64,000 nt of DNA from Mya arenaria (lineage: Eukaryota; Mollusca; Bivalvia; Myida; Myidae): the NCBI RefSeq assembly GCF_026914265.1, contig NC_069124.1, positions 29,937,423 through 30,001,422 of the forward strand, read 5' to 3'. The first letter of the stretch is position 1. Every line of letters begins with the position of its first letter. The position numbers were made by a program, and so were the translations under genes. Below the pieces are notes generated by a model. The model saw only the letters and a program-made list of their open reading frames with translations, was not told the DNA's origin and did no database searches. Of this stretch, positions 15,652-35,198 are shown in pieces.

Positions 15652-15756
15652 TCAATCGAGCACACCCATCAGTATTCCCACAATGCCCCCAACAATCACA
15701 ACCATAATAATCACTATCACTATGGAGACACACCGAATCTTCCTGCCCTCGTTATC
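15652..15756 (-). CDS. RGS9BP: R9AP-like exon 7 (C-terminal transmembrane anchor, stop)
   Basis: Acceptor TTTGCAG|GATAAC; phase 0; 34 codons plus TGA. It encodes DNEGRKIRC and then about 23 strongly hydrophobic residues rich in Val, Ile, Gly and Met, ending GVLD. A basic flank followed by a single C-terminal span predicts a tail-anchored protein with its helices in the cytosol. R9AP has the same layout. A variant poly(A) signal ATTAAA lies at 15562-15567 on this strand, downstream of the stop. Confidence 0.88.
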   Translation of the reverse strand, partial: DNEGRKIRCVSIVIVIIMVVIVGGIVGILMGVLD

Positions 15757-18700
15757 CTGCAAATGGAAATGAAACGAAGAGAGTTTTAAAATCACTAATG
15801 CAAATATTATCAAACATCAAGAAGACAGAGCTCCTCTGAAGACATAATTTGTAAGATTTGAAACAAATACTGCAGATAAAATAGCTGTTTACACGACCGT
15901 AAAAAGCAATCAAAGACCGGAGGAAATAACTACTTAGGGAAGAGAACGCTCTTAAAAGACGATGTAATTGTTGCTGGTCGATATATTTTTTCTTCTATCT
16001 TTGAGGCCCATACACGGTGCAAAAGTTGGTTTGAAGCGCCAAAACATGAAATGTTGCAATTTTTTTTTATTAAGTTTGGCGTTCATTTTAGCATGCATTA
16101 TACAAAATACAAAAATCCTTTGAAACATGTTTCGGTGAAATAAAGAGTAGAGCAATTTTACGAAAGGTGATTTTTTTTCAGGTTTTTAATCAAAAACCAT
16201 TTGCATTTATGTGCAAGTCTCTGTACAAAATGATATTTTTTCTGTCAACATATTCAAGACTTCCGGGAAAACAATGTCATGTGGGGATTGCTTCTATTTT
16301 AAGAAATATATTTGCAGTTATTTATTTGCCTTCCCAACCCTCTTTTGCAATGTAAACGGCATTTAATCATGGGTTCGTTTCAAAGGTTTCATGATGTACA
16401 CCACTACCAGCAAACATTTTGTTTCAGCAATGAACAATTATCGTGACTGGTTTCTAATAAAATTACGGCGTTGAAAACATTGAAAGGCTGTAAACGCGAC
16501 AAGCGTGATTTTACTTTTGTACAATTCGGTTCAGTCAATAAAAATCGACTCCGAAAAAATATTTTGAGTGGCCGCAAACTGTTAACAATACGTGCTTTAA
16601 CCTAAGTATAGATAATGCAAATTGATGGAATTTTAATAGAATCAGCTAGTTTCATTACAGAAAGTGATAAACCTATATTTACTAGCCCAAGGATATATGG
16701 ACAATGCTTTCATGCTATTGTAAAGCTAATGTTTTCTCGGAACTTGGGACTTGGAAACATATTTACAAATAGTAATAATATATGAGCTATCAGGATATGT
16801 TTTTAATTTTATTATTATTTGCCAATGATATGTTGAACTTTGTGAAACCCCAGAAGATTTACACTAGTAATCTGATTACCCATACTCAGGCCCCAATTGC
16901 TCGACACCTCTCAAGTTCCTTATAAAAGGATTAAGGTAAGCTCACTATTTTTGTTTATCAATAATTTGCGTAATATTTACTTCTTCAAGAGTTTCTATAC
17001 TTTTAGAGAGGAACTATCCGTAAGATTATCACAATAAACCATTTTCCTGTTATCAAAATTCAATTTAAGTATGTGTATTGGCTAATTGAAATAAGCTACT
17101 TGAGACGGTAAGCTTAAGAAGTTTCGAGAAATTTGGGCAAGTATGGTAAAAAGTTTAAACGCACCGAACTAAAATTTAAGAAGGTATGAATGTTTACGAA
17201 GGTTTCATCTATTATTACATACGAATGTGAAGTATGGGGATTTACACAATCCGCACAGTTGGATAGGATGCATTTTATATTTTGCAAAGTTATATTTGGT
17301 GTTAGACAAACAACCTCAAACGCTTCTATTATCTGGTGAATTGGGTAGATACCCGTTACATATAAATATATACGTACGTAATTAAATTCTAGTTTAAACT
17401 AAAGAGAAGTGATAATATAGATATTCAATAGGTAATTGAAGATGCTATGTTAGATATTGATAATAACAAATCAAACTTGTTTAGTAATGTTAAGAACCTC
17501 CTCAAACGATATGTTTTTCTTTGTGTGACGATTCACATAAACGAACACCATTTCATTTCTATTTTTAAACAATGTCTTATAGACGAATACATTTGTATTT
17601 ACAACAATGGCAAAGAAATGTCAACGGAAATGGCAGTTTAACTGAGTATAAAGAACTTAATACCTCTTGAAGTTGAATCAGTATCGCGTCAAGAATTTCT
17701 TAGAATTTCTATAACAAAGGCCGACTAATAGTAGGTGGTTTGTGCGTCAACTAATGTCTCACGATTGTCGTGACAATTGTACATCATTCTTAATGGCAAA
17801 AGCCTTTTTGTGCTTCAGAGATATGTTCGCTTCATATGTGCTCATAAACTTATCATACGAAGAATTAATTGGTAAAAAATCGTATAAACCTTGGAAATAT
17901 TGTCGGAAGAAAATAGCGATTCATCGTCTCTATTAAGGTTCACTATACATATCCATTCTACCAACTAAGTAATTATGTTTGATCATTATTCAGTAATTAA
18001 GTAATAAGGTTATTAAGAAATTATTTTTAAGAGACTTTGCCTTTAATGATGTATGAGTGTCGGTCATCACAGATTTTTAATACACGTTTTTGTTAATAAC
18101 TCTCTCATTATCATGATTAAATACCTCAGATAGTTGTTCTGTATTAGTTGTACTTTCTGCAAAAGACTCCCCATTATCTAAAATGAAAAAAAAAAAAATC
18201 TTTTGTTGTCAATCAGAAAAAAACATATATATATATATATATATTAGGATTATTCGTAAATATCATTCTACTTAAGAATAAGACGTTAATATTAAAGTAC
18301 ATCAGGTGGTCGAACGTACTAATATTTTTAAGTCTCATGAAAAATAAGCATGTTGATACATAAATGGAAAAAAACACACAATAATAACACAGAAGTACTT
18401 ATGGAACTTGACATTCTACAATTAAAAACCGGCGTTCGCGTTCACTCCCTACGTTCAACATGTAGACAAGGAGTCAACTTGATTCCCAGCGAAGTGTATT
18501 TTTGCATAAATAATTATTATTCCAAAAAAAATCTTAAGGTTTAGCTGCTTAATTGAAATTACTACTCGAACTACTTACAACGTAGATGCACCGAATTTGG
18601 ATATTGTAAACCGTCCATATACACCGGATGCATTCGGAGCTCCTCGGCCATTTTTATCGAAAACAACATCGGATGTATTTAGACGGTTTACATACTCAAA

Positions 18701-21700
18701 AAGTAGTACGTTTAAGTCCGCTGCAAGTAGATCGCGTAGTAATTTTATTTAGCAGTTAAACTTTATGACTCACCTCTTGGGAATCTTAATTATGTTTGCA
18801 ATAATACACTTCACTGGCAATCAATTTAAACTAATATCAATAAATACCACTCTAAAACACTACATTCAATCACGGACCTATAAACTTATAAGTCCATGAG
18901 TCAATTAATGATTTTCGATAAAAATGGCCGAGTAGTTCCGAATGACACCGGATGTTGTTATCGATTGAAAATGGCAGAGGATTTCCGATTGTGTAGTCAT
19001 ATTAATGTGTAATGTACTGACCGACAGTAATGGTGAACTTTTCCGTCTCAATCTCCGGGTCTATTTCCCAGGACTGGATGGCGATACTCTGGTTCATCGA
19101 GTATATCAGCTCCCGCAGGTCGTCTATCTCCCTGAATACAACCGACATTTTCAGTCAATGGAATTGCAGATAGGCAATCATAAAGTACTGGGATTAAGAA
19201 ATGCAACTTCTGCGGGCCTTAATTGCCCGTCTTCTGTCGCTATTATGTTCAGTGTGTGTATACCACGTGATAAATTACGTCATATGTGCTACATCGGAAG
19301 TCCACATTTTGCTTAAAATGAAGACTTAAATCAAAGATAACTTTTCCTTTACTACACCATTTTTAATTAAACAAAGGGCAGTCCATGCCGCTTAAATAGC
19401 CCCGCCTTCCTTGTATTACCGAAGTTTGATAAGATGATTAGTTTCATCAAACATTTCGACAAACCTGTTTCCAAAATAGTGTTTTGAAGTTCTCCGTCAG
19501 ACGGCCGTATTGTGAAAAGGTTTGTCGAAGTGTTTTAAGAAACTAAAACCTCAATCAAACTCTGGTAAAAGACCGAAGGTGGGGTTCCGTAAGCGGCGTA
19601 ATCTGCTCTATGTTTCATTTAAAATGGTGAAGATAGTGAAGTTATCTTTGTTTAAAGACTTCAATTGAAGCAAAATATTGCCTTCCGACGTAGCATTTGT
19701 GACGCAAATTATCACGTGGTATACACACACTGATGTTGAGCTCTTCTTAATGATCGAAATAAAAAAGAATATGATTTGTGTACAGGTATCAAAATATTAA
19801 CTTTCAGTAGAAAATCAATTAATTTATACATATATTTACAACAGGTGCTAAGTAGCTTTAAAGAACATAAGGGCATTAACATGACGTAGTTTAAGTTGGC
19901 TGATTGTTTAGTAGTTGTTTATTGCTTTTTTACGGTGCAAACAGCCCGATGACGCTGAACATAGAATGGGTCTGGCATGGTCTGGCCTGACTACTGATTA
20001 CTCCGCATAAGTCCACCATAATTAGCAATTTCAATTTCAGACAGCCATCTCATCAGCGAGCGTGTCATATGTGAGATTGATTTTGCAAATTGTTTATTTT
20101 TAGTTGTAGTGAGGTATATTTTAATGTTTAACACAAATGGCTTGGCAGAAAATGTGACACTATGTTTACTATAATTTCCAAGATGACATTTCTATTTTAA
20201 AATTAGTCAATTAGGTATAACTGTCAATGTTAATTAAATTTGAACGCATAGTGGTGTGTATTTCTCATAAGGATCGTACAATTCAAAGTCGATCGAAGGG
20301 AGTGAACTCCTGCTTTAGTGTCGTACATAACCTGTACAGTTTTAGTTACATTTAACCTCAAATAATTAAAAAAAAACAACATAAAGCTTATGTGTGACTA
20401 AAATACTGGTAATATGACACCAAAACATATCCTTCAAACGACTGTGGTATGGAGTAACAATTAATACATTGTATTACTGTTGCCATGTACATTTATTGAC
20501 ACATTTAACCTAAACGTGCTTAAAAAACAACAACAGACTATTAGGTTAAATGTCACTAAAATACAGGTCATATGACACCAAAGCAGGAGTTCATTCCCTT
20601 CAAACATCTGTGGTATGGAGTAACAATTAATACATCGTATTAATGTCGCCATGTTCATTTAAAGAGACATTTAACCTAAAAGTATTTAAAGAGCAACAAC
20701 AGACTATTAGGTTAAATGTCACTAAAATACAGGTCATATGACACCAAACCAGGAGTTCATTCCCTTTAAACGACTGTGGTATGCAGTAACAAATTCATAC
20801 ATTGTATGCATGATGTCATGTACATTTATAGTGACATTTTACCTAAAAGTATTTAAAAAACAACAACAGACTTTTAGGTTAAATGTCACTAAAAACAGGT
20901 CATACGACACTGAAGCAACCCTTCAACGACTGTGGTATGTTGTAACAATAAGTACATTGTATACTAAATAAAACTTATAATGATGACATTATACGAGAAC
21001 TATTAAAGATCTGGCGGTCTCGTACCTCTGCAAGTTTTCATCTACGCCGGTGGAGAGGACGTCGCCGCTACCGAAACTTTTCACTGAGAGGATGTCTGTG
21101 CCAGGGAGTCGGTCCACCACGAGTTTGTCGTGCTGTTTCTTTGATAACGGGTTCTCTGACATCCCGGCGTGTATCAGAACATCTAGCTCTGAAACACCAC
21201 ACGATCAGCATTTTTTTTTTAAAAGTGGACAGCCGGCAACTCTACATGTAAATGTATTTGTAAGTATAAAATGGACGTAGAACGTTGACGTCACCTCCAT
21301 CACTAAGCTGTGTTCGTTTAACCGACTTTATACAATTTGACAAAAGATAATTATTCACATTTACCCCTTTAGTAAACCACTTATGTCTGTAAAGCCGCGT
21401 TTCGGGAAATGACGTCCACATGCATTGTACAGTCAAATTCTTGACCGGGGGGGGTGAACTCTTTCTGCACGGGTTGCCTTACACACCTCACTCGGCGGTG
21501 AAGTCTGATTGGGCGGTGAACTCCGTGAACGATGTCTGCACGAGTAGCGTGACGTACCTGACTGGACGGTGAACTCCGTCTGCACGAGTAGCGGGATGTA
21601 CCTGACTGGACGGTGAACTCTGCTTGCACGAGTAGCGGGATGTACCTGACTGGACGGTGAACTCTGCTTGCACGAGTTGCGGGATGTACCTGACTGGACG

Positions 21701-24700
21701 GTGAACTCTGCCTGCACGAGTAGCGGGAAGTACCTGACTGGACGGTGAACTCTGCCTGCACGAGAAGCGGGATGTACCTGACTGGACGGTGAACTCTGCT
21801 TGCACGGGTAGCGGGACGTACCTGACTGGACGATGAACTCTGCCTGCATGGGTAGCGGGACGTACCTGACTGGACGGTGAACTATGCATGCACGGGTAGC
21901 GGGACGTACCTGACTGTACGGTGAACTATGCCTGCACGAGTAGCGGGATGTACCTGACTGGACGGTGAACTCCGTCTGCACGAGAAGCCTGACGTACCCG
22001 ACTGGACGGTGAACTCCATCTGCACGAGTAGCGGGACGTACCCGACTGGACGGTGAACTCCGTCTTCACGAGTAGCGGGACGTACCTGACTTGACGGTGA
22101 ACTCCCCTGCACGAGAAGCGGGATGTACCTGACTGGACGGTGAACTCTGCCTGCACGAGTAGCGGGATGTACCTGACTGGACGGTAAACTCTGCCTGCAC
22201 AAGTAGCGGGATGTACCTGCCTGCACGAGTAGCGGGACGTACCTGGCTGGACGGTGAACTCTGCCTGCGCGAGTAGCGTGATGTACCTGAATGGACGGTG
22301 AACTCCGTCTGCGCGAGTAGCGGGATGTACCTGACTGGACGGTGAACTCTGCCTGCACGAGTAGCAGGACGTACCTGACTGGACGTTGAACTCTGCCTGC
22401 ACGAGTAGCGGGACGTACCTGACTGGACGGTGAACTCTGCCTGCACGAGAAGCGGGATGTACCTGACTGGACGGTGAACTCTGTCTACAAGAGTAAAGTG
22501 ACATACCTGACTGGACGGCGAACTCTGCCTGCATGCGTACCCTGACGTACATGACTGGACGGCGAACTCTGCCTGCACGAGTAGCCTGACGTACCTGACT
22601 GGACGGCGAACTCTGCCTGCACGAGTAGCGTGACATACCTGACTGGACGGCGAACTCTGCCTGCACGAGTAGCGTGACGTACCTGACTGGATGGTGAACT
22701 CTGCCTGCACGAGTAGCGTGACATACCTGACTGGATGGTGAACTCCGCCTGCACGAGTAAAGTGGTAAAGTACTGCTCTTCAAGGTACTCGAGACACGCA
22801 GAGAAGGCTCGGTACATCCTCTCAAGGTCCTCGTTTAGCCCGGACCGAGACCTACAATATACATGTCATACATGGAAACACGTGTACACTGAACACCTTT
22901 CATATAGTTCATAGATTTTCTTATGACATATTATTATTTATTGACCAATCAATAAACACAAATCAATTTCATTGGTCAACTGTCATTTTTGGATAAATAT
23001 CGATCAATCAATAAACACTAAAGACTTACTTGAACCAAACCAAAGAATTAAGCGGTTTTATACAATTGGCTGTTGGTTACTTTTAAACTGTAAGATTTAA
23101 ACATTTAAAAAAATAAATGTGGCATAATTCATAGAAAAAATAGTCTGTACCTTTTCAATACGGGAATAAGTTTAATTTGAGCTTGTTTCGCGTGGTCCCA
23201 CATACGTAAACGCGCCATCTTCAACTTCCGGCGAAGGAGGTCGCAGTCGGTGCGCGTGCCCAGCAGGGAGGCGAGGATGCAGTAGCGCGCCGTCTCCTCG
23301 TTGAGGTCCGTCAGTATCTGTTGTAGGTATCATGTGCATATTTAGCAATTATTAATCATTGGTTACAGGACAATGTGTTAATTAAATCAATTAAATTTAA
23401 AACGATACATTGATGCGAATTTTCAATAAGCAATGTATTTAATTTTATCACCATCATCAACTGAATAACAAAACAGTAGTATAAACAAAAGAAGCGATGC
23501 CGTCAGGAAAACCATCATTGTAAAAACTGGATGACAATTTCATCGCTCGCCTGTTTCACCACGTTTTCCAAGTTTTCAGATCGCTAAATTAATGTCCTGT
23601 AAATAATATAGTGAATTGACCGATTTGCACGCAAACTAACACTTATTTCTAGTGTTTTACGCCCTCAACACCATAATATGAGATGCAAAATCCACTTAAC
23701 GACTACACATTAAACAATATCAGGAAAAGAGTAACGTTTGTTAAAAGGAAAATACAATTGGTTTATCGTAACGACTATGCATTCCATAAGGACGCAATCC
23801 CGCGTAGAAGGGCAAATGAAATGTAAAAAACAAAAACATCAAGTAGATCCTGGCAGCAGGTTTTTTCGTATTGAAATGCCATTCAACTTCAAAACTTACA
23901 AATAGTCAGATCAAATTTTGAATTAAAAATGTGCACATTAGGTTAAAATTTAAAACCTTATGGATTCATCAAATATGGTCGCCAAAATACAAGATGGCCG
24001 CCATCACCGTTAGTATGTAAATAAACACTGGAAATGATCTCGGAAAATCTCGTACTGTATACGCGATAGTTCAAACGGTTTATGTAGACATATAAAGAAG
24101 TTTCCAATCCAAGGTTTATAGGTCCGTGAGGCGTAATATCAATACCTTTCTTGTATCAATTTCCGTGATTAAGTTGTCGGAAATACATTTTTCCGCCATA
24201 TTCACTTGATATGTAAGATCCAGTATATGAGTTTAATTTTTCAAAATATCTCTTTTATTTCAACCGTTTTTGTGAAGTCTAATAACGAAACGCAGGTTTG
24301 TTAAGGGATTACTGTTTGTTTGTTAGACTTGAGCTGCAAAGGAAAGACGGATAAATGTTGCTTCACATATTAAATGCAGTATCGAGTATATCAGCATTGA
24401 TCAGGATAAACGAGTTATTAAACATGTAATTTATCGCAGATTGAAATATATACGTATAATTTACCGCAGATTGAAATATATATATATGTGTGTATGCGTG
24501 TGTAAATTATATTGATATGTATATATATATAAATATATATATATATTATATATATTTGTCCACCCAGATATGTATTTCGGGAAATGTTATTATACAAATG
24601 CTATTGTCTCTTATGATTTATTCTACGATGTTTCGTAAAAACACTTTTATGGCATTAATAAATGCCCTATTTTCATTCAAAGCTAGTGTTACGTTTTCCC

Positions 24701-27700
24701 TTCATCCATACGAGTTCGACCCGGCCTGTGACTTAGTACCTTGACGTTGGACAATACATAAATATATATGTATGTATGTATGTGTATGAAAATTGAAATT
24801 TTGCTTAATCATGACGCTCTGGTTTCCATAACAATCGCACTTGAAAGGACATTTATTCCAGCTCTCCATACCTGTCAATTAGTTGTCTTATATTCTCAGA
24901 TACTTAACAACATCTTATAACAATATCGACTGAAGAAGTGGGAAATGTTTAAATCTTTGCCAACACGCATACAGCCTACTGATGCCCCGTTTATATGAAG
25001 AAATTAACCACCAGGGTGTGTGTGTGGGAGGGGGGGGGGGAGTCTGTGTAAACGCAAATTCCAACGGGGTTAAATAGACTCTTGGAGGCAAACGCAAACA
25101 TTTGCCGCCATTGGGTGCTACGAATTTTGGCATTGTTTTAGTGCATTTTTCCCAGATTAAAAAAATAGTTAAAGAGAATTCTAAATAACAAGTTGATTTT
25201 TTTCTATCAAAATTTTCTAAACAGTCATCATACTTACACTGTTATTTTCATTAAATATTTCAACTGAAAACTTAATCATATTCACCTGAAGAATGGGGAA
25301 GAAAAGGGAGGTAAGAAGACAAATAGTACTCACACATTAAATAGGCGATTTTTCACTTATAACTGTTGAAGAAAAAGCATATTTTTTACATAGTTTGTTT
25401 TTACTTTATAGAAATTGATCAAATTTGTAACTGATCATATTTCTAACTAAACGGTTTTTTATTTGTTAATTACACCATTAGATTTCATCCATTGCATGGC
25501 GATGTAGGCAGTTTCAATGGATGTCATGTTTAAACACATTCCGATACGATTTTTCATTCGATACAGATACTTGAAATCAGACACTAGGGAAACCAGAATA
25601 GGAGTTTTATAGCCATTTTGTTTCTATTGAACTATTATCTGACAAAATTGCGATAATTATTTTACCAAAAAAAAAAACACACGAAGAAGTATGTGTTTGA
25701 AAAAGGAATTTCTTACAATAATTATTTTTAATTTTTATTTTGAATACATATAATGGTAGGAACTCCTCGCATCTGAACGTCTGTTTTATCTCTAGACAAA
25801 CACAGTATGTGTATACCACGTGATTAATTACGTCATATATGTTACGTCGGAAGGCAACATTTTGCTTTTAATGAAGACTTAAATCAAAGATAACATTTCA
25901 TTTACAACACCATTTTAAATGAAACAAACGACATTCTATGCCGCGTAAAGAGCCCCGCATTTGTTTTATTTCCGAAATTTGATGAGGTCATTAGTTTAAT
26001 CAAACACTTCGACAAACCTGTTTCCAAAATAATGTTTTGACAGTGCTCCATCAGGCGGCCGTATTGTGAAATGGTTTGAAGAAGTTTTTAAGAAACTTAA
26101 CTCGCAATAAAATTTTGGTAAAAAAACGAAGGTGGGGCTTCGTAAGCGGCGTAGACTGCGCTATGTTTTATTTACAATGGTGAAGAAATAGTGAAATTAT
26201 CTTTGTTTGAAGCTGTGTGAAGTTAGCTAAACATACGACATTGGACATTGGACATTCAAAATCGAATGTTGTGCTGGCACGACATTGGACATTGGACATT
26301 CAAAATCGAATGTTGTGCTGGCACGACATTGGACATTGGACATTCAAACGTGAAAGTCGTGCTAGCACAACATTGGACATTGGACATTCAAAATCGAATG
26401 TTGTGCTGGCACGACATTGGACATTGGACATTCAAAATCGAATGTTGTGCTGGCACGACATTGGACATTGGACATTCAAAAGTTAAAGTCGTGCTAGCAC
26501 GACATTGGACATTGAACATTCAAAATCGAATGTTGTGCTGGCACGACATTGGACATTGGACATTCAAAAGTGAAAGTCGTGCTAGCACGACATTGGACAT
26601 TGGTAATTCAAAATCGAATGTTGTGCTGGCACGACATTGGACATTGGACATTCAAAAGTGAAAGTCGTGCTGGCACGACATTGGACATTCAAAATCGAAT
26701 GTTGTGCTGGCACGACATTGGACATTGGACATTCAAAATCGAATGTCGTGCTAGCACGACATTGGACATTGGACATTCAAAATCGAATGTTGTGCTGGCA
26801 CGACATTGGACATTGGACATTCAAAATCGAATGTTGTGCTGGCACGACATTGGACATTGGACATTCAAAAGTGAAAGTCGTGCTAGCACGACATTGGACA
26901 TTCAAAATCGAATGTTATGCTGGCACGACATTAGACATTGGACATTCAAAATCGAATGTTGTGCTGGCACGACATTGGACATTGGACATTCAAAAGTGAA
27001 AGTCGTGCTAGCACGACATTGGACATTGGACATTCAAAATCGAATGTTGTGCTGGCACGACATTGGGCATTGGACATTCAAAAGTGAAAGTCGTGCTAGC
27101 ACGACATTGGACATTGGACATTCAAAATCGAATGTTGTGCTGGCACGACATTGGACATTGGACATTCAAAAGTGAAAGTCGTGCTAGCACGACATTGGAC
27201 ATTGGACATTCAAAATCGAATGTTGTGCTGGCACGACATTGGACATTGGACATTCAAAAACGATTGTCGTGCCGGCACGACATTGGACATTGGACATTCA
27301 TAACCGAATGTTGTGCTGGCACGACATTGGACATTGGACATTCAAAAGAGAAAGTCGTGCTAGCACGACATTGGACATTGGACATTCAAAATCGAATGTT
27401 GTGTTGGCACGACATTGGACATTGGACATTCAAAATCGAATGTCGTGCTAGCACGACATTGGACATTGGACATTCAAAATCGAATGTTGTGCTGGCACGA
27501 CATTGGACATTGGACATTCAAAATCGAATGTTGTGCTGGCACGACATTGGACATTGGACATTCCAAAGTTCCTGGTTGTCATAGATATTCGCACAGTGAT
27601 TCAGATTATGTTAATAGTCAAATCGTTCTTTAAATAGTTCTGGATGCAGCAAAGTGAAGGCAATAAAAAAGAGTTCCATACGGGTACTTGTTTATCTTTG

Positions 27701-30700
27701 CCCGTTGGAAAGATAAGAATTTCACGCATGGACAAATGTTTGAATCTACTTTTCTGAGGTGGCAGAAATATATATATCCGAAATCTTGGACTGGTGATAA
27801 GGCTGCAATTCTAATTTGTCCATTCAAATTATTGTGTTAAATAACGACATTCAACTTGGCTTTTATTTTTTAAAATATGGTTTATAATAACGTATATCTG
27901 TCTATTCATAGTGACCAAATATTATTTAGGCATCCAATGGAAGTGGTAAATATTAAGAGAAAAAATATAATGAAACGACAACCAGTATACAAATAATAAT
28001 TGTTGGACAAAGGTCATTTTTACTCATTAATTATCTGTCAGGAGTACCCTTTAAAATAATACCAAAATTATATGGGATCCCCATGCATCAAAATGTAGCA
28101 TTATCGCCAATGGTTTATGCATTGACAAGTTTAGCTGTGTGTGTATGTTGCCTTAAGTCACATCCATGTCCGACAATATTATACATTTGAGGTACCTAAC
28201 ACATATTTAACAAAGAAACTTGTATTTGAAAGTCCGCAACATTGTTATTGAGAGTTGTATTAAAACAATCCTTTCGATTGATATACATACATATTTCCAT
28301 GTAAATGCAGACACATTCATTAATGTAATATAATTATTCTAAAGCTCTGTAGATAAACACATACTGAAGTGCACATTTGTTGGGTTTATATAATTATTTG
28401 CGCTTTGTTTCCTTTCAACCCTTTCAACCATTGTCAGTTCTGCCCAAGATGCCATTTCCAATGGCGCTGGTGTCACATTTTACATGTATAAATTGTATAT
28501 TCTGTAAAACCTATAAGAACTTATGTCGTATGTGATGAAGACGTCATTTTGAATTCTTTAATGTCGATGCGATTGATTATAAAACGCTTTGTGTAATTCT
28601 GTCGACTTATCAAAAAGGTTTATCGAACACAATTATTTCATATAAACTTTACCAAATGAAGACGACGTAGCATGTTCGACTAACTGAGTCGATAAAAAAA
28701 CAAGTCGACAGGCAGGAATAGGTTACTTTATCGACTCATTGACAATATTTTTTTGTGTTTACGTCAAACCAGATAAAAAAGATGTACGGACGATTACATT
28801 TATACTTGTAGGAATCATCAATGCATGTCTATATTTTCCATATGTCATTATATACTGTGGATATAATTATCTTCACTTCCTTTATAAATGGTACTAGATG
28901 TGTAGCAGTGATGTGTAAACAATTAAGCTTATTAAAAATATGCCATTTTGAAAGCATTATCACTGTTTGTCTACATATAATCCACGACCATTCATAAGTA
29001 TATTCATTTGAATCTTTCTCTGCATATGTGACATCATATATATCTGAATCATGCTTAAGTTTCAAATATTGCTATGGAATCGTCATGACAATGCTCTCTT
29101 GGTGTTAATAAATTTTATAATGGTTCATTGCTTTGTGATCTCTGACCCTTTTCAAATAATTTCAAGACAATATCTCAAATAAACAAAAAATCCGAATAAT
29201 GCATGCAATCAAAATTAATTTAAAGTCGGTAAAAAAAAAACATTCATTCATAAAACATGTCATACATTGATTTAAATGTGCTAACTGCTAGCACGACTTT
29301 CACTTTTGAATGTCCAATGTCCAATGTCGTGCTGGCACAACATTCGATTTTGAATGTCCAATGTCCAATGTCGTGCCAGCACAACATTCGATTTTGAATG
29401 TCCAATGTCCAATGTCGTGCTAGCTAGACTTTCACTTTGGAATGTCCAATGTCCAATGTCGTGCTGGCACAACATTCGATTTTGAATGTCCAATGTCCAA
29501 TGTCGTGCTAGCACGACTTTCACTTTTGAATGTCCAATGTCCAATGTCGTGCCAGCACGACTTTCACTTTTGAATGTCCAATGTCCAATGTCGTGCCGGC
29601 ACGACATTCGGTTTTGAATGTCCAATGTCCCATGTCGTGCTAGCACGACTTTCACTTTTGAATGTCCAAGGTCCAATGTCGTGCTAGCACGACTTTCACT
29701 TTTGAATGTCCAATGTCCAATGTCGTGCTAGCACGACTTTCGATTTTGAATGTCCAATGTCCAATGTCGTGCGAGCACGACTTTCACCTTTAAATGTCCA
29801 ATGTCCAATGTCGTGCCAGCACAACATTCGATTTTGAATGTCCAATGTCCAATGTCGTGCTAGCACAACATTCGATTTTGAATGTCCAATGTCCAATGTC
29901 GTGCTAGCACGACTTTCACTTTTGAATGTCCAATGTCCAATGTCGTGCCAGCACAACATTCGATTTTGAATGTCCAATGTCCAATGTCGTGCTAGCACGA
30001 CTTTACTTTTGAATGTCCAATGTCCAATGTCGTGCCAGCACAACATTCGATTTTGAATGTCCAATGTCCAATGTCGTGCTAGCACGACATTCGATTTTGA
30101 ATGTCCAATGTCCAATGTCGTGCCAGCACAACATTCGATTTTGAATGTCCAAGGTCCAATGTCGTGCCAGCACAACATTCGATTTTGAATGTCCAATGTC
30201 CAATGTCGTGCTAGCACGACATTCGATTTTGAATGTCCAATGTCCAATGTCGTGCCAGCACAACATTCGATTTTGAATGTCCAATGTCCAATGTCGTGCT
30301 AGCACGACTTTCACTTTTGGATGTCCAATGTCCAATGTCGTGCTAGCACGACATTCGATTTTGAATGTCCAATGTCCAATGTCGTGCCAGCACAACATTC
30401 GATTTTGAATGTCCAATGTCCAATGTCGTGCTAGCACGACTTTCACTTTTGAATGTCCAATGTCCAATGTCGTGCCAGCACAACATTCGATTTTGAATGT
30501 CCAATGTCCAATGTCGTGCTAGCACGACTTTCACTTTTGAATGTCCAATGTCCAATGTCGTGCCAGCACAACATTCGATTTTGAATGTCCAATGTCCAAT
30601 GTCGTGCTAGCACGACTTTCACTTTTGAATGTCCAATGTCCAATGTCGTGCTAGCACGACTTTCACTTTTGAATGTCCAATGTCCAATGTCGTGCCAGCA

Positions 30701-33700
30701 CAACATTCGATTTTGAATGTCCAATGTCCAATGTCGTGCTAGCACGACTTTCACTTTTGAATGTCCAATGTCCAATGTCGTGCTAGCACGACTTTCACTT
30801 TTGAATGTCCAATGTCCAATGTCGTGTGTTTAGCTAACTTCACACAGCTTTTGTTTGAAGTCTTTTTACAAATCAAAATATTGCCTTCCGACGTTACATT
30901 TATGACGCAATTATCACGTGGTATACACACACTGAAACACCTACCATGCCAAACAAGATTTCCAATCAAGAGGCCTTTTAGTGCATAACTTCATTATTTA
31001 CAGAAAATGTTCCCTGGCCTCTTAAATGGTAGGAACTTCCCTCAACTTCACCCCTGCCTTTTCTCTGGACAAAGACGTACAGCGCCAAACAAGAGGTACG
31101 GAACAGAAGCTTCTCAATGTATGATTTCAATGACTTAAATAGATACTGTGACTAAGCCATTCTCTTTATTATGGTATGAGCTTCCTCCACCTAAACGCCT
31201 GCTTTATATGAAGCGAAAACCTACAGCGCCAAACGATTTTCCACTTCTCTCTAATATGGTAGGACCTTCCCACATCTTAACGGCTGCTTTACCTCTAGAC
31301 AAAAGCCTACAGCACCAAACAAGAGGTCCGGAGCAGAAACCTTTCATTGTATGGCGTCAATACTGAAATACAGAGACTGTTCCCTTGCCTCTAATAAGGC
31401 AGGACCTTCCCACACTTTAACGGCTGCTTTATCTCTAGGCAATAACGAACAGCGCCAAATAAGAGGCATTTCAGTGTATAACTTCAATAGTTACAGAGAT
31501 TGTTCCCTTCTCTCTATTATGGAAGGAACTTCCCTCACCTTAACGGCTGCTTAACCTCTGGGCATAAAATTACAGCGCCAAACAAGTGTTCCACAGCAGA
31601 AACCTTTCAGTGTATGTCTTCAAAAGTTACCAAAATAATTCCCTTGCCTGTATAGCGGTAGGAAGGAACTGCCTCTAGTTTAACGGTTTCGTTGTCTTTC
31701 AGAACTCCACAAACCCCCAAAGCCAATAAATGTATTCAATATTGAGTTACCTTTAAACTTTTAAAACTCCTTATTACAGAACATCGCATCGTTCTGAAAA
31801 CCCAACACAAAGCGCGTTGGTTAGTGGTCACCAAGCTGGATAAGTGTTTTTTTTCCGGGTACTCCGGTTTCCTCCGCAACACTAGCCTGGAGTTACTTCC
31901 CCTAACACTACTGTATCGTTATTTGGTACTGTATGGAATAACAATAAGCAGGGAACCAGACTACCAAAACACCATTCGGAGCTCCTCGGCCTGTTTTCGA
32001 TAAAAATGGCCGAGGAGCTCCGAATGCCACAACACAAGATCACACTCTCGCGCAACACCGTGCCAAAGAGAGTGACTTAGTATAAATTTTCACAACTTCC
32101 TTTACAATTGTTGTAAAATATATAATATTTAAATTAACTTGTTGACAGTGGCACACCATTCCTTGTTTTTGAAAGAACTGAGCATAATCACGTAAACACA
32201 CAGGATAAGCCAGAGACCCAAAAAGGTGAGAACTAAAAATTATCACCTTGACCCCAACTGCATCAAAACCTGCGATGAATGACATCTAAAGTACATGGTC
32301 GCACAGATCTGGCATTTTTTAGGGTTTATTTTCTCTGTTCTTGACTATAAGTAAGTTGGTGTTACTTAAAATCAACACATTTAAAATGATCACAAAATAG
32401 GTGTATTAGGTGGTGTTTTTTTTTAATTTAAATGCATTATCGTGTCTAACTCATTTGACTTGAATGATCCAAACAAATAAGAAATGCACATAATTAAGGT
32501 ACAGATAAAAACATTTTAGCGATGCTTTGGCGCTTTTTTAACCTTGGCATTATTAACCACGTAGCTATTAATGATAATGAAAAAAAAGTATTTATATAGC
32601 CTAATATTTGTTCTACCCTTACCCACATCATATGAGCCGCATTGCGCGATTTTGGGCCTTCGGACATTATTATTACAAATGAAATAATCATTAATAAATG
32701 ATGCCAAAAATAATGATTTTTTCTATGTATATCAATTTCTTCCAATCTTCTTTCTTATGTTTGTCATTGGTGCATCATTTTTTGACAATTTATGACCATT
32801 GGTTTGCTCATGTTTCCATAGCAACCATGGATTTCGTCCCGACATATTTTGAATGCATTAATAGTCTGTGTTTAAAACGCCAATGACAATCGAGGATTTA
32901 CGCCATTTACCGTAGCTCCATAATTTTTATCATGTAGAGAAGATTGGACGGTTTTACCGATATCATAGTATCAAGATACCCGGCCGCGGCCAAATAGAAG
33001 CAGATGTATACATATATTCATTTGATTCAGTACGAGTTCAATTTGAAACTTTCTGCGTATTCAGCTTTTAATATTGCGTTTGGTAACTCGTCAATGCTAA
33101 GATGTAAAAATAGTTGCGTTTTCTATGATTATAAATGCGTAAGTACTTTAACACGCAGCTTATTCAAGCTACATTACCCGCAAAACTTATTTTGCCTACT
33201 CTTTTCGGCGCTGCTTTTAGCAGTTTTAGCAGGCTGTTCATGCAGAACGCAACTAAAACGCAGCTCCGTAGCTATAAGATCAAATTGGTAATGTAAATTA
33301 GGTCGCCGACCACCGCAGATCTAACAGCGCTCGGGTTGATACGCTCATGCGCGCATTAATTCGTCAAATGTGTAAAATGTTATGTTGATCTGCCGATGGA
33401 AGATTTCGATTTACGGTTTTAAAAGCCTGCAAGCCTAGCGGCATACATCCTAAAATAAATAATGAGGACATCCCAGTAAAGTTATGTACTGTGCAAACAT
33501 ACGAAGGTAACTGTATTAATCTAAATATCAACACTGTTGGTTTTTAAACGGAACGTACTATTGACTTTCTTGGTTGTGATTTTCCATGTTTTGTACAAAC
33601 ATCAATCACAAAGCTGCGACAATTAACCATCATTTAATGGCCACTCATTTAATGAAACTAACGCCTGGGCGGTCTAACTTTCGCATCAAAATACCACGTG

Positions 33701-35198
33701 ACTACGAAAAGGGCGGAGCAAGTGGGTCCATCGCCAAAATGACCCTAACATATACCTAGTAGTAAATATAGTACTCCCTTTATAACAAGACGAATGTTGA
33801 TGTTAGGCATCAAAGACGCGGCTGAATGGGTTTTATTGAATATTAATATATATATATCTATTGATGTTCATGAAACATTCTGATTAAGTTTCATGAATAT
33901 TAGAACAAACATAATGCCTTTAGTGTGTTCCAGATTGGACCTAGTCACCTAGTTTTTGACCAACGTGAAAAATATCGATACCAAATTGGCTCAATAAAGT
34001 CATGTGACAATATATACAATTGTTAACATTCCGAATAAACACGGACATAGCCGAACTATGACGGTTTAATCAACTTTCTAGATCGTAGTTACTCGGTCGT
34101 CTCCGGCAAGCTTAAATTATTTAGACTGGTACCTTGCATTATCACCGATAAAATTATTGGTATCGGTTCGATTCGGCCGAGATATCATTTCGGCCTGATC
34201 CTTTTCGGCCTACTTTTATTCATTAATGTTTGTTTTAAATCGTGTGAATTACGCTTTGAACTTTTATTTTATATCAGTTAAATTTAAATTGTGTTAATTT
34301 CGTTATTTCGACTTATATTTGTTAGTAAAATCGTGTGAATTAAGCTTTGTACTTCCATTTTATATCACTTAAATTTAAAATAGTCAATTAATGTCGTGTT
34401 AAGGCACTTATATTTGTTATCAAATGCATAATTTAAACTATTATTCACAATATGCCCATAAATTCACACATGCTTATTTACTACCACAGCGTTTATATAA
34501 ATCGTTTTTACAGAAAGTAAATTTCTAAAATAACGAACTCGTATGCCTCCAGGCCGCGTCTAATAATGTTGAATTTATGAGTGCAGTATATTTTTATAAA
34601 TGTGCAGGGCGCGTGGGTAGTTCAAGTGCTTTGAAGAAAACAGGACATTTCGTCCAATAGAGATATGGAAATTGTTAAACTGGCTGCTTATTGTCGATAC
34701 TCTGGTTGTATAATTACGTTTTGAAATATAGAAAATTATACTGAAGCCCAGAAAGTGTGTCGGCAAGGATTAATATCATTTGTGTTATTTACAGTGTTTA
34801 AGTACACACAGCTTCTCTGCATTATTGTTTAATATAAAAAAAATGTATTTGTATTGGTGACGGTTTTATTTTATCTATTTTTTTTATTTCCTCCTTCAAG
34901 CCATCATTTTTGTTTTGGAATGGGGTGGGGGCAAGTTTTTTTACAAAAAAAATGTGATAACGTGAAATGGCTTTAACTAGTATAAAGTGAGCTTGTTTTT
35001 TGAACTTTGTTTACGCAATATACAAAATACCTTTGCGCAATGATCCTTTTCAGAACAAGACAATCGGGCAGTATCGATGACGTCACCGACGTCTGTAAAT
35101 GACCTCAATCTTGGTTCGCTGACGGTTATCACATTGCACTGCTTCTTCTTCGACGGCGTGGCTTCCAACGAGGACATCTTTGACCCACAAATATTCAT
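15652..35198 (-). CDS. RGS9BP: RGS9-binding-protein-like (R9AP/R7BP family), 7 exons, complete
   Basis: Coding exons are 35031-35198, 23151-23317, 22727-22851, 21026-21188, 19022-19131, 18125-18177 and 15652-15756, with phases 0, 2, 1, 2, 1, 0, giving 296 aa. R7BP and R9AP bind the DEP/DHEX region of R7-class RGS proteins with Gbeta5 and hold these GTPase activators at membranes. Shared landmarks are DHCAKILTDLNEETARYC (compare the family pattern of D-C, N, A and Y at the same spacing), GLNEDLERMYRAFSACLEYLE (second helix), EIDDLRELIYSMNQS (third helix), and a C-terminal membrane span behind RKIR. The membrane tail resembles R9AP more than R7BP, which is lipid-anchored. The first ATG follows an in-frame TAG immediately; a second ATG at codon 8 has a better context. 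The length is close to the vertebrate family (about 235-260 aa) plus an N-terminal extension. Confidence 0.85.
17190..17950 (+). pseudogene. Decayed non-LTR retrotransposon fragment (3' of RT)
   Basis: At about 17215-17335 the plus strand reads TYECEVWGFTQSAQLDRMHF, then FCKVIFGVRQTTSNASIIW. This is the C-terminal thumb region typical of LINE reverse transcriptases (YG-CE-WG-F, FCK-LGV). Stops and frameshifts follow. It lies in intron 6 of the R9AP-like gene on the opposite strand. Confidence 0.65.
18125..18177 (-). CDS. RGS9BP: R9AP-like exon 6 (short spacer before membrane anchor)
   Basis: 53 nt; acceptor TTTTAG|ATAATG and donor TGAG|GTATTT; phase 1 in, 0 out. It encodes DNGESFAESTTNTEQLSE. 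I placed it because exons 5 and 7 cannot join in frame directly, and this is the segment found between them with suitable splice sites and both required phases. It is acidic and Ser/Thr-rich. Confidence 0.72.
18631..18944. mobile_element. MITE B copy 3, 9-bp TSD
   Basis: Inverted CATTCGGAGCTCC ends and shared interior, flanked by CACCGGATG on both sides. It lies in intron 5 of the R9AP-like gene. Confidence 0.8.
19022..19131 (-). CDS. RGS9BP: R9AP-like exon 5 (third helix)
   Basis: Acceptor TTCAG|GGAGAT and donor GTCG|GTCAGT; phase 2 in, 1 out. It encodes EIDDLRELIYSMNQSIAIQS and then WEIDPEIETEKFTITV. The vertebrate family has the same arrangement: a helix starting with an acidic residue and L-R/K-E-L/M, then a proline-containing strand before the tail. 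Confidence 0.85.
19250..19732. mobile_element. Intact MITE A, palindromic, 5-bp TSD
   Basis: 483 bp with terminal inverted repeats of 50 bp or more starting CAGTGTGTGTATACCACGTG, flanked by ATGTT on both sides (19245-19249, 19733-19737). Much of the interior is also palindromic (for example AAGACTTAAATCAAAGATAA and its inverse). It lies in intron 4 of the R9AP-like gene. Confidence 0.82.
20335..20960. repeat. About 165-bp tandem repeat (4 diverged copies)
   Basis: CATATGACACCAAA-type motifs recur at about 20415, 20573, 20740 and 20904. Each unit also has inverted ATTTAACCTAA and TTAGGTTAAATGTCACTA. A related single copy lies near 36180-36385. The array lies in intron 4 of the R9AP-like gene. 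Confidence 0.75.
21026..21188 (-). CDS. RGS9BP: R9AP-like exon 4 (linker)
   Basis: Acceptor TTTCAG|AGCTAG and donor AGAG|GTACGA; phase 1 in, 2 out. It encodes ELDVLIHAGMSENPLSKKQH, then a Ser/Gly/Asp-rich linker ending DENLQR. This low-conservation segment lies between helices 2 and 3 of the family. Confidence 0.85.
21429..22742 (-). repeat. 44-bp minisatellite derived from an exon end plus splice donor (about 30 copies)
   Basis: The spacing between units is exactly 44 bp at several places checked (21557, 21601, 21645). In the gene's sense direction each unit reads ACTCGTGCAGGCAGAGTTCA followed by CCGTCCAGTCAGGTACGTCA, with small variants. It consists of the last 32 nt of R9AP-like exon 3 followed by the first 12 nt of intron 3, so nearly every unit carries CAG|GTAC or CAG|GTATG. 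Because 44 is not a multiple of 3, the open frames across the array cycle through three peptide readings; they are not independent genes. The array fills most of intron 3. Confidence 0.93.
22727..22851 (-). CDS. RGS9BP: R9AP-like exon 3; its 3' end seeds a 44-bp minisatellite
   Basis: Acceptor TTGTAG|GTCTCG; phase 2 in, 1 out with the first donor (CAG|GTATGT). It encodes SRSGLNEDLERMYRAFSACL, then EYLEEQYFTTLLVQAEFTIQ. The last 32 nt of the exon plus the first 12 nt of the intron are the unit repeated about 30 times downstream. The exon end is therefore uncertain in principle: donor 4 at 22595 would also keep frame and add 44 residues. Confidence 0.82.
23151..23317 (-). CDS. RGS9BP: R9AP-like exon 2 (helix 1-2)
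   Basis: Acceptor CAACAG|ATACTG and donor AAAAG|GTACAG; phase 0 in, 2 out. It encodes ILTDLNEETARYCILASLLG, then CDLLRRKLKMARLRMWDHAK. This matches the family pattern of a helix, a short loop with a Cys/Ser residue, and a Lys/Arg-rich helix. GC content is far above the surrounding intron. Confidence 0.88.
26237..27570 (+). repeat. Left-arm 44-bp tandem array of the foldback element
   Basis: About 30 units of GACATTGGACATTGGACATT plus a variable 24-bp half. Two subtypes are interspersed: one reads AAAATCGAATGTTGTGCTGG, the other AAAAGTGAAAGTCGTGCTAG. The second contains the 10-bp palindrome GTGCTAGCAC. Some units lack one GGACATT copy. Open reading frames across the array are a by-product of the repeat. 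Confidence 0.93.
27580..29280. other. Loop of the foldback element
   Basis: AT-rich sequence between the two inverted arrays. It has short ORFs only (the longest noted is 78 codons at 28829-29065), and none resembles a transposase. I see nothing else in it. Confidence 0.5.
29290..30825 (-). repeat. Right-arm 44-bp tandem array (inverted relative to left arm)
   Basis: About 34 units of the same two subtypes as the left arm, in reverse orientation, ending in the inverted terminus at 30849. Unit order differs from the left arm, so the arms have diverged by expansion, contraction or conversion. Confidence 0.93.
30990..31720 (+). repeat. Degenerate 120-140-bp tandem repeat (about 6 copies)
   Basis: Units share GGTAGGAACTTCCC, TTAACGGCTGCTTTACCTCT and ACAGCGCCAAACAAGAGG. 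The spacing varies (31259, 31401, 31522). The array lies in intron 1 of the R9AP-like gene, just past the nested transposons. Confidence 0.7.
31973..32026. mobile_element. MITE B micro-derivative (54 bp, ends only)
   Basis: CATTCGGAGCTCCTCGGCC runs almost directly into GGCCGAGGAGCTCCGAATG with about 16 bp between. The 9-bp flanks CCAAAACAC and CCACAACAC differ by one base. It looks like an internally deleted copy reduced to a hairpin. Confidence 0.72.
35031..35198 (-). CDS. RGS9BP: R9AP-like exon 1
   Basis: 56 codons from ATG, with donor AAAG|GTATTT; phase 0. It encodes an N-terminal extension with SKMSSLEATPSKKKQCN and ends in EKDHCAK. Joined to exon 2 it gives CAKILTDLNEETARYC, which aligns with the conserved start of helix 1 in vertebrate R7BP/R9AP. 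That alignment is the reason for choosing this exon 11.7 kb away. TAG precedes the ATG in frame. Confidence 0.72.

Follow-up and report, generated by a model that had tools for sequence, protein, structure and literature searches.

A row of 28 splice donors, apparently derived from an exon end, in an R9AP-like gene of the soft-shell clam Mya arenaria

How is a 5′ splice site chosen when the end of an exon, together with its donor, is repeated many times in a row? This question is raised by an R9AP/RGS9BP-like gene on the minus strand of a 64,000-nt stretch of the Mya arenaria (soft-shell clam) contig NC_069124.1 (positions 29,937,423 to 30,001,422; the whole stretch is hereafter called the window), in which the end of exon 3 and the beginning of intron 3 recur as a minisatellite of 28 donor-bearing units, mostly of 44 nt (21546–22758, minus strand).

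Structure and origin of the array

Tandem amplification of an exon end with its donor, at about 30 copies, had been claimed by an earlier inspection of the sequence (the original prediction). The tandem row was confirmed both by Tandem Repeats Finder (TRF), which reported 44-nt arrays at 21525–22227 and 22217–22759, and by reading the units on the minus strand, while the copy count was corrected to 28 donor-bearing units. Exon 3 (125 nt; 22727–22851, minus strand; acceptor ttgtag, donor CAG/gtatgt, the slash marking the cut) closes inside unit 1, which consists of the exon end plus the first 12 intron nt, and exon-3-type ends run from 22727 in unit 1 to 21558 in unit 28. The 27 donor-to-donor steps measured 44 nt in 25 instances, the two irregular units, 13 and 16, lying 26 and 43 nt from the preceding unit, respectively. 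In the 3′ flank (21450–21545, minus strand) about two more units were recognised in a decayed state, one GAG/GTGTGT site among them. Chance is no serious rival for an array of 28 units.

By strict identity the unit comprises 32 exon and 12 intron nt. The 44 nt upstream of unit 1 matched the unit at 8 of 44 positions, compared with a mean of 10.9 for shuffled sequence; resembling the unit no better than shuffled letters, they indicate that the array begins abruptly within the exon, its 5′ edge being defined to a few bases. However, unit 6 ends in CACTTT, the same six exon bases that stand directly before unit 1, and therefore the first duplicated piece may have comprised 38 exon and 6 intron nt. 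The claim that the unit is exactly 32 + 12 nt thus holds as a description of strict identity, but not as a certainty.

The direction of copying can be judged from the relatives of the encoded protein. The exon 3 end encodes TLLVQAEF in Mya, and the aligned ends read TLLLQTNF in Mercenaria, TLLLQLNF in Ruditapes, TLLLQMDF in Mactra and TLLIQIQF in P0007, P0008 and P0009, that is, TLLxQxxF at the matching place in six of the eight non-Mya rows of the alignment; TLLLYVNF (P0005) and SMYIEHDF (Dreissena) depart from it. Because the motif is common to six of the eight non-Mya relatives, the exon-end coding sequence predates the array. The reverse order, in which an intronic minisatellite overwrote the exon end and left unit 1 as array-derived coding sequence, could be argued from the finding that Mya and Dreissena share one residue (F) of the last 14 in exon 3, against 73% identity overall. 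However, Dreissena, the nearest relative by overall identity, yet departs most at this place and is the outlier among the aligned species, and its alignment with Mya shows no gap at the exon 3 end. In addition, when a 543-nt piece of the array (22217–22759) was searched against the Mya assembly (1.216 Gb, 18 contigs) on which all genome searches were run, the three reported matches were all the array itself, a lower bound at the sensitivity of that search. Invasion of the exon by the array is thus very improbable and largely refuted, while derivation of the array from the exon end is well supported by the shared motif and the gapless Dreissena alignment, as the original prediction had it.

The gene (15652–35177, minus strand, stop TGA included) was modelled with seven coding exons, placed by tblastn of proteins P0001 and P0002 and by splice joins. 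Besides exon 3, they are exon 1 (35177–35031), exon 2 (23317–23151), exon 4 (21026–21188), whose acceptor closes the array-holding intron, exon 5 (19131–19022), exon 6 (18177–18125) and exon 7 (15756–15652), which ends with the stop TGA, all on the minus strand. They join in one open frame of 289 aa, with GT donors and AG acceptors at all six introns. The product is 73% identical to the Dreissena polymorpha protein P0002, and the window coding sequence was 100% identical to the deposited Mya protein MAR_023168 across the 152 queried residues. Its R9AP-like identity was borne out by homology to proteins so named, i.e., RGS9-binding protein B-like of Mercenaria (62%) and Ruditapes (59%) and RGS9 binding protein of Mactra (51%). 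A genome search with the Mercenaria protein gave five reported matches, all inside the window, and the gene is single copy as far as that search sees.

R9AP-type proteins combine syntaxin-like helices with a C-terminal membrane anchor. Matches to syntaxin profiles were weak (E 0.013 and 0.057), and a Pfam search with three R9AP-like proteins found nothing above cut-off. The hydrophobic C-terminal end is conserved among the relatives and is helical in a low-confidence structure model. In the AlphaFold model of the Mercenaria relative P0003 (mean predicted local distance difference test score, pLDDT, 54.5) a helix ends at residue 141 and a low-confidence stretch covers residues 142–190; by alignment, the exon 3/4 junction would lie near residue 143, after the helix and entering that stretch. 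Over 15652–21026, the gene model behind MAR_023168 reads past the end of exon 4 and is without exons 5–7, and so without the hydrophobic C-terminal end that Dreissena and other relatives have in common. An assembly artefact or a pseudogene, for which nothing speaks beyond the odd structure, is hardly credible: the published Mya assembly is described as built from PacBio long reads (PMC10663159), the array units differ from one another, and the seven exons, separated by introns with GT and AG ends, form a single uninterrupted frame for a conserved protein.

Donor strength and the outcome of each donor

The claim that nearly every copy carries a plausible 5′ splice site was supported by pairing with U1, and less so, for 12 of the 28 units, by a human donor matrix. 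All 28 units have GTA directly after the cut, and AG/GT is intact and CAG/GTA kept in 25. The donors were CAG/GTACAT in 11 units, CAG/GTACGT in 10, CAG/GTATGT in three, CGG/GTACGT in two, and CAG/GTACTT and CAT/GTACGT in one each, with the first six donors all retaining G at +5. The U1 pairing energies were −8.0 kcal/mol for GTATGT, −7.6 for GTACGT, −7.1 for GTACAT and GTACTT, −6.9 for CGG/GTACGT and −1.0 for CAT/GTACGT. The five other donors of the gene ranged from −4.9 to −5.8 kcal/mol, i.e., 27 of the 28 array sites (−6.9 to −8.0) were stronger. Outside the array, nine of the 1101 GT sites on the same strand of the gene span paired with U1 at least as well as GTACAT.

When exon 3 is read on into the array, the frame stays open until a TAG at 22487–22485 (minus strand), where the original prediction had placed the stop. 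In the computed products, donor 1 gives 289 aa and donor 4 (CAG/GTACGT; 22589–22597, minus strand) gives 333 aa, with 44 residues inserted; translation of the spliced model thus upheld the claim of an in-frame extension by 44 residues at donor 4 (22595), which is the only other donor keeping frame to the end. For donors 2, 3, 5 and 6 the stop falls in exon 4, 205–320 nt before the last junction, while donors 7–28 yield a 226-residue protein ending at the TAG within the extended exon 3, 348–1253 nt before that junction. Nine of the 28 readings regain the frame of the normal end, some of them after an earlier stop, and it is the stop position that decides, leaving only donors 1 and 4 with full-length products. 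Because the stops of the other 26 lie well upstream of the last junction (205–1253 nt), these products would be open to nonsense-mediated decay.

Such outcomes would suit a regulated poison extension, in which the array is retained because donors 2, 3 and 5–28 give decay-bound transcripts and thereby adjust the amount of protein according to copy number; 26 of the 28 donors do yield a premature stop well before the last junction, and the array donors are strong by U1 pairing. However, random frames produce stops anyway, and no significant conservation of the donor core was detected: in the 26 of 28 units compared (units 13 and 16 were omitted for indels), positions −3 to +3 were not significantly more conserved than other non-CpG columns (permutation 0.10; GTA alone 0.08), and the most variable column of the unit was donor +5, a CpG changed in 11 of the 26. 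Regulation of this kind is considered rather unlikely.

We regard it as likely, instead, that the array is a "mirage"-type minisatellite grown from the exon 3 end, spliced at donor 1 and tolerated. The sequence shows that a short segment spanning the exon 3 end and the intron 3 start was duplicated in tandem and grew to about 30 units; all copies were added downstream of the exon end, which left the original donor, that of unit 1, where it was. The pre-mRNA thus presents a row of 28 donors, of which 27 match U1 well, and exon 3 would be recognised across the exon, with donor 1, the one nearest the upstream acceptor, favoured and the remaining units removed as intron. This proposal follows a published rule, drawn from human data and minigenes, that pairing across the exon and the upstream donor are favoured where introns exceed about 250 nt, and the downstream donor where they are short; where minigenes carried two identical donors between introns of 365 nt, the upstream donor was preferred (PMC9225289). 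Intron 2 measures 299 nt, and intron 3 shrinks from 1538 nt with donor 1 to 369 nt with donor 28; since both exceed 250 nt whichever donor is chosen, donor 1 is predicted. Consistently, the deposited MAR_023168 reads TLLVQAEFTIQS followed by ELDV, i.e., donor 1 joined to exon 4; the Mya annotation is reported to have used MAKER with RNA-seq from six tissues (PMC10663159). Amphioxus mirages with AG/GT in many units are likewise reported without interference with regular splicing (PMC3087553). A slip to donor 4 would insert the 44 residues into an apparent linker, and a slip to any other donor is predicted to give a decay-open transcript.

Several points weigh against use of donor 1 and against the strength of the row. 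The donor-1 join in MAR_023168 could be the choice of the gene finder, whose model departs from the relatives further on, in its exon 4 read-through and missing exons 5–7. Under the classical rule, the competing donor that lies closest to the downstream acceptor is favoured, which here would mean the far end of the array (PMC9225289). The 299 nt of intron 2 exceed the 250-nt switch by little, and the 250-nt rule comes from human data and transfected cells, not from molluscs. Finally, on the human donor matrix the 12 GTACAT/GTACTT sites score lower than two, and the CAT/GTACGT site lower than one, of the five other donors of the gene. Taken together, donor 1 is probably the one used in clam transcripts, in agreement with the deposited protein, and the array is most likely tolerated.

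The locus could tell two rules of splice-site choice apart: donor 1 should be used if choice is exon-centred, and a donor at the far end if it is intron-centred. A natural gene here offers 28 near-identical donors, mostly at 44-nt steps, compared with the two identical donors in the minigenes described (PMC9225289), and small base differences distinguish many of the units in sequence reads. The value of the array is that of a natural experiment, not of a demonstrated device.

Comparison with known systems

The closest likeness was found in the "mirages" of amphioxus, described as minisatellite-like duplications of exon–intron boundaries with AG/GT in many units, regular splicing and unstable length (PMC3087553). 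In the cases described there (Adh3 and the globins BflGb6 and BflGb9), the repeats span the boundary, the authentic boundary is kept and AG/GT signals are present; the Mya array likewise has boundary-spanning units, the authentic coding boundary at one edge and AG/GT signals (25 of 28 units). According to the same report (PMC3087553), either boundary can be duplicated in amphioxus, the Adh3 units are quoted as 10–72 bp, and the BflGb6 mirage has 3 and 6 units in two haplotypes, whereas the Mya array, in a mollusc, repeats one 44-nt unit with 28 donors. For mirages an escape of the array edges from homogenisation is also considered, on which the decayed remnants at the far edge of the Mya array may bear. 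Therefore, the row of donors made from an exon-end repeat is present as predicted, but as a phenomenon it is not unheard of, the amphioxus mirages being of the same kind (PMC3087553). No molluscan example of a mirage-type repeat was found among the results listed from the open-licence literature searched, which is weak evidence of absence. The array is best read as a long molluscan mirage minisatellite, longer than usual for a kind of repeat that is known but has seldom been described.

The polyubiquitin array of human UBC also consists of tandem units each with an AGGT splice motif, but its units are coding monomers and its introns unit multiples (PMC10809524), whereas the Mya array is intronic after unit 1. 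With this precedent (PMC10809524), the Mya units could be imagined as dual-specific sites, each serving as donor and acceptor, with the array removed stepwise or spliced stochastically. The AGGT core is present in 25 of the 28 units, and the pyrimidine content before it (0.44–0.50 in the six units checked) equals that of the exon 2, 3 and 5 acceptors (0.44–0.50). However, the modelled Mya intron does not have both ends in the array with a length that is a multiple of the unit, its acceptor lying outside the array at 21189. An intron of 22 or 44 nt is also unlikely, and little credence is given to a dual-specific array here. Tandem donors of the GYNGYN type resemble the Mya array in that neighbouring donors compete, but their sites lie a few nt apart and two compete at once.

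Two further systems involve repeats at exon–intron boundaries. The variable internal tandem repeats of human duplicated genes are, like the Mya array, minisatellites at such boundaries that may alter introns, but they occur in recent human duplicates and were studied as intron formation, and a donor ladder is not part of that account as far as it was available (PMC2812944). The intron gain reported in potato RdRp resembles the Mya array as a tandem duplication across an intron–exon boundary, but consists of a single duplication over the first intron and second exon that created a new intron (PMC4974935).

Other donor-bearing arrays and repeats

Sixteen further arrays of the Mya genome were inspected, eight from a list of donor-triplet pattern matches and eight of the ten listed for periods of 42–45 nt, the remaining two of which were the R9AP-like array and L041, already in the donor-triplet set. 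Both sets head their lists in contig order rather than being drawn at random, and the counts stand without a control rate. Three of the 16 (L034, L039 and L038) open with an exon end having some homology, weak in L038. In L034 (about 56 units of 32 nt), Kelch_3 matched above the Pfam cut-off over the array exon and the next exon joined by donor 1, while the best kelch profile (E 2.4e-10) remained below its own cut-off. L039 (about 25 units of 47 nt) encodes a hormone receptor domain (E 1e-4, under the curated cut-off). L038 has 25-nt units and a weak E of 0.04–0.11, and all four of its PDB matches were prostatic acid phosphatases. In another three (L036, L037 and L044) the exon is putative, marked by no more than an open frame behind an acceptor-like site, and no exon ending at the array was found in the other ten (L035, L040–L043 and L045–L049), of which L042 and L043 are near-copies of one another. 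A Pfam search of the array exons gave no match for L034 (24 aa alone), L036, L037 or L038.

Individual arrays showed features of their own. In L039 (4350–5600, reverse complement), where the end of the hormone-receptor-domain exon and its donor recur about 25 times, the 7-mer ATGAATG stands both in the exon, where the unit starts, and in the intron, just beyond the final donor; slippage between these two places, had it seeded the array, would leave such a pattern. L037 (2880–7147) is a 56-nt array with 48 perfect CAG/GTAAGT sites. It follows a short exon that putatively encodes a membrane helix and has a donor of its own, ATAT/GTAAGT, poorer than the array sites. L041 and L049 are 44-nt arrays at unrelated places, yet a donor-bearing stretch (GTACGTGTAC..GTGATCTACT) is similar in both, which suggests a dispersed repeat family.

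Genome-wide, the donor pattern gave 3562 matches, compared with 2073 for the reversed pattern, and 758 compared with 290 for periods of 42–45 nt. A genome-wide enrichment of donor-bearing arrays was nevertheless rejected, as an anagram motif spaced as in the 3562-match pattern gave 6153 matches and its reverse 5384. Because arrays contain the anagram motif more often than the donor motif, the further Mya cases may simply reflect dense minisatellites. It is doubtful, though conceivable, that working genes of Mya (R9AP-like, kelch, hormone-receptor-domain, acid-phosphatase-like and others) carry donor-edge minisatellites as a whole class, whose long ladders both act as intronic U1 sinks and, via rare slips, supply a copy-number-dependent dose of decay-bound or lengthened mRNA; if true, the allele length of a donor ladder would be a heritable expression dial. 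The further arrays suggest a set of natural tests of splice choice and molluscan cases of the repeat called "mirage" in amphioxus (PMC3087553).

Minisatellites are dense in the window according to the TRF list. Intron 1 of the R9AP-like gene holds two 44-nt tandem arrays (26235–27567 and 29286–30826) that are inverted copies of one another (about 93% over 1.3 kb) with matching short flanks, an arrangement that resembles a foldback-like element with arms made of tandem repeats. A stretch with TATACCACGTGATAATT occurs near the right edge of this foldback-like element (30850–30940) and again in intron 4 upstream of exon 5 (19240–19740), and is probably a dispersed repeat.

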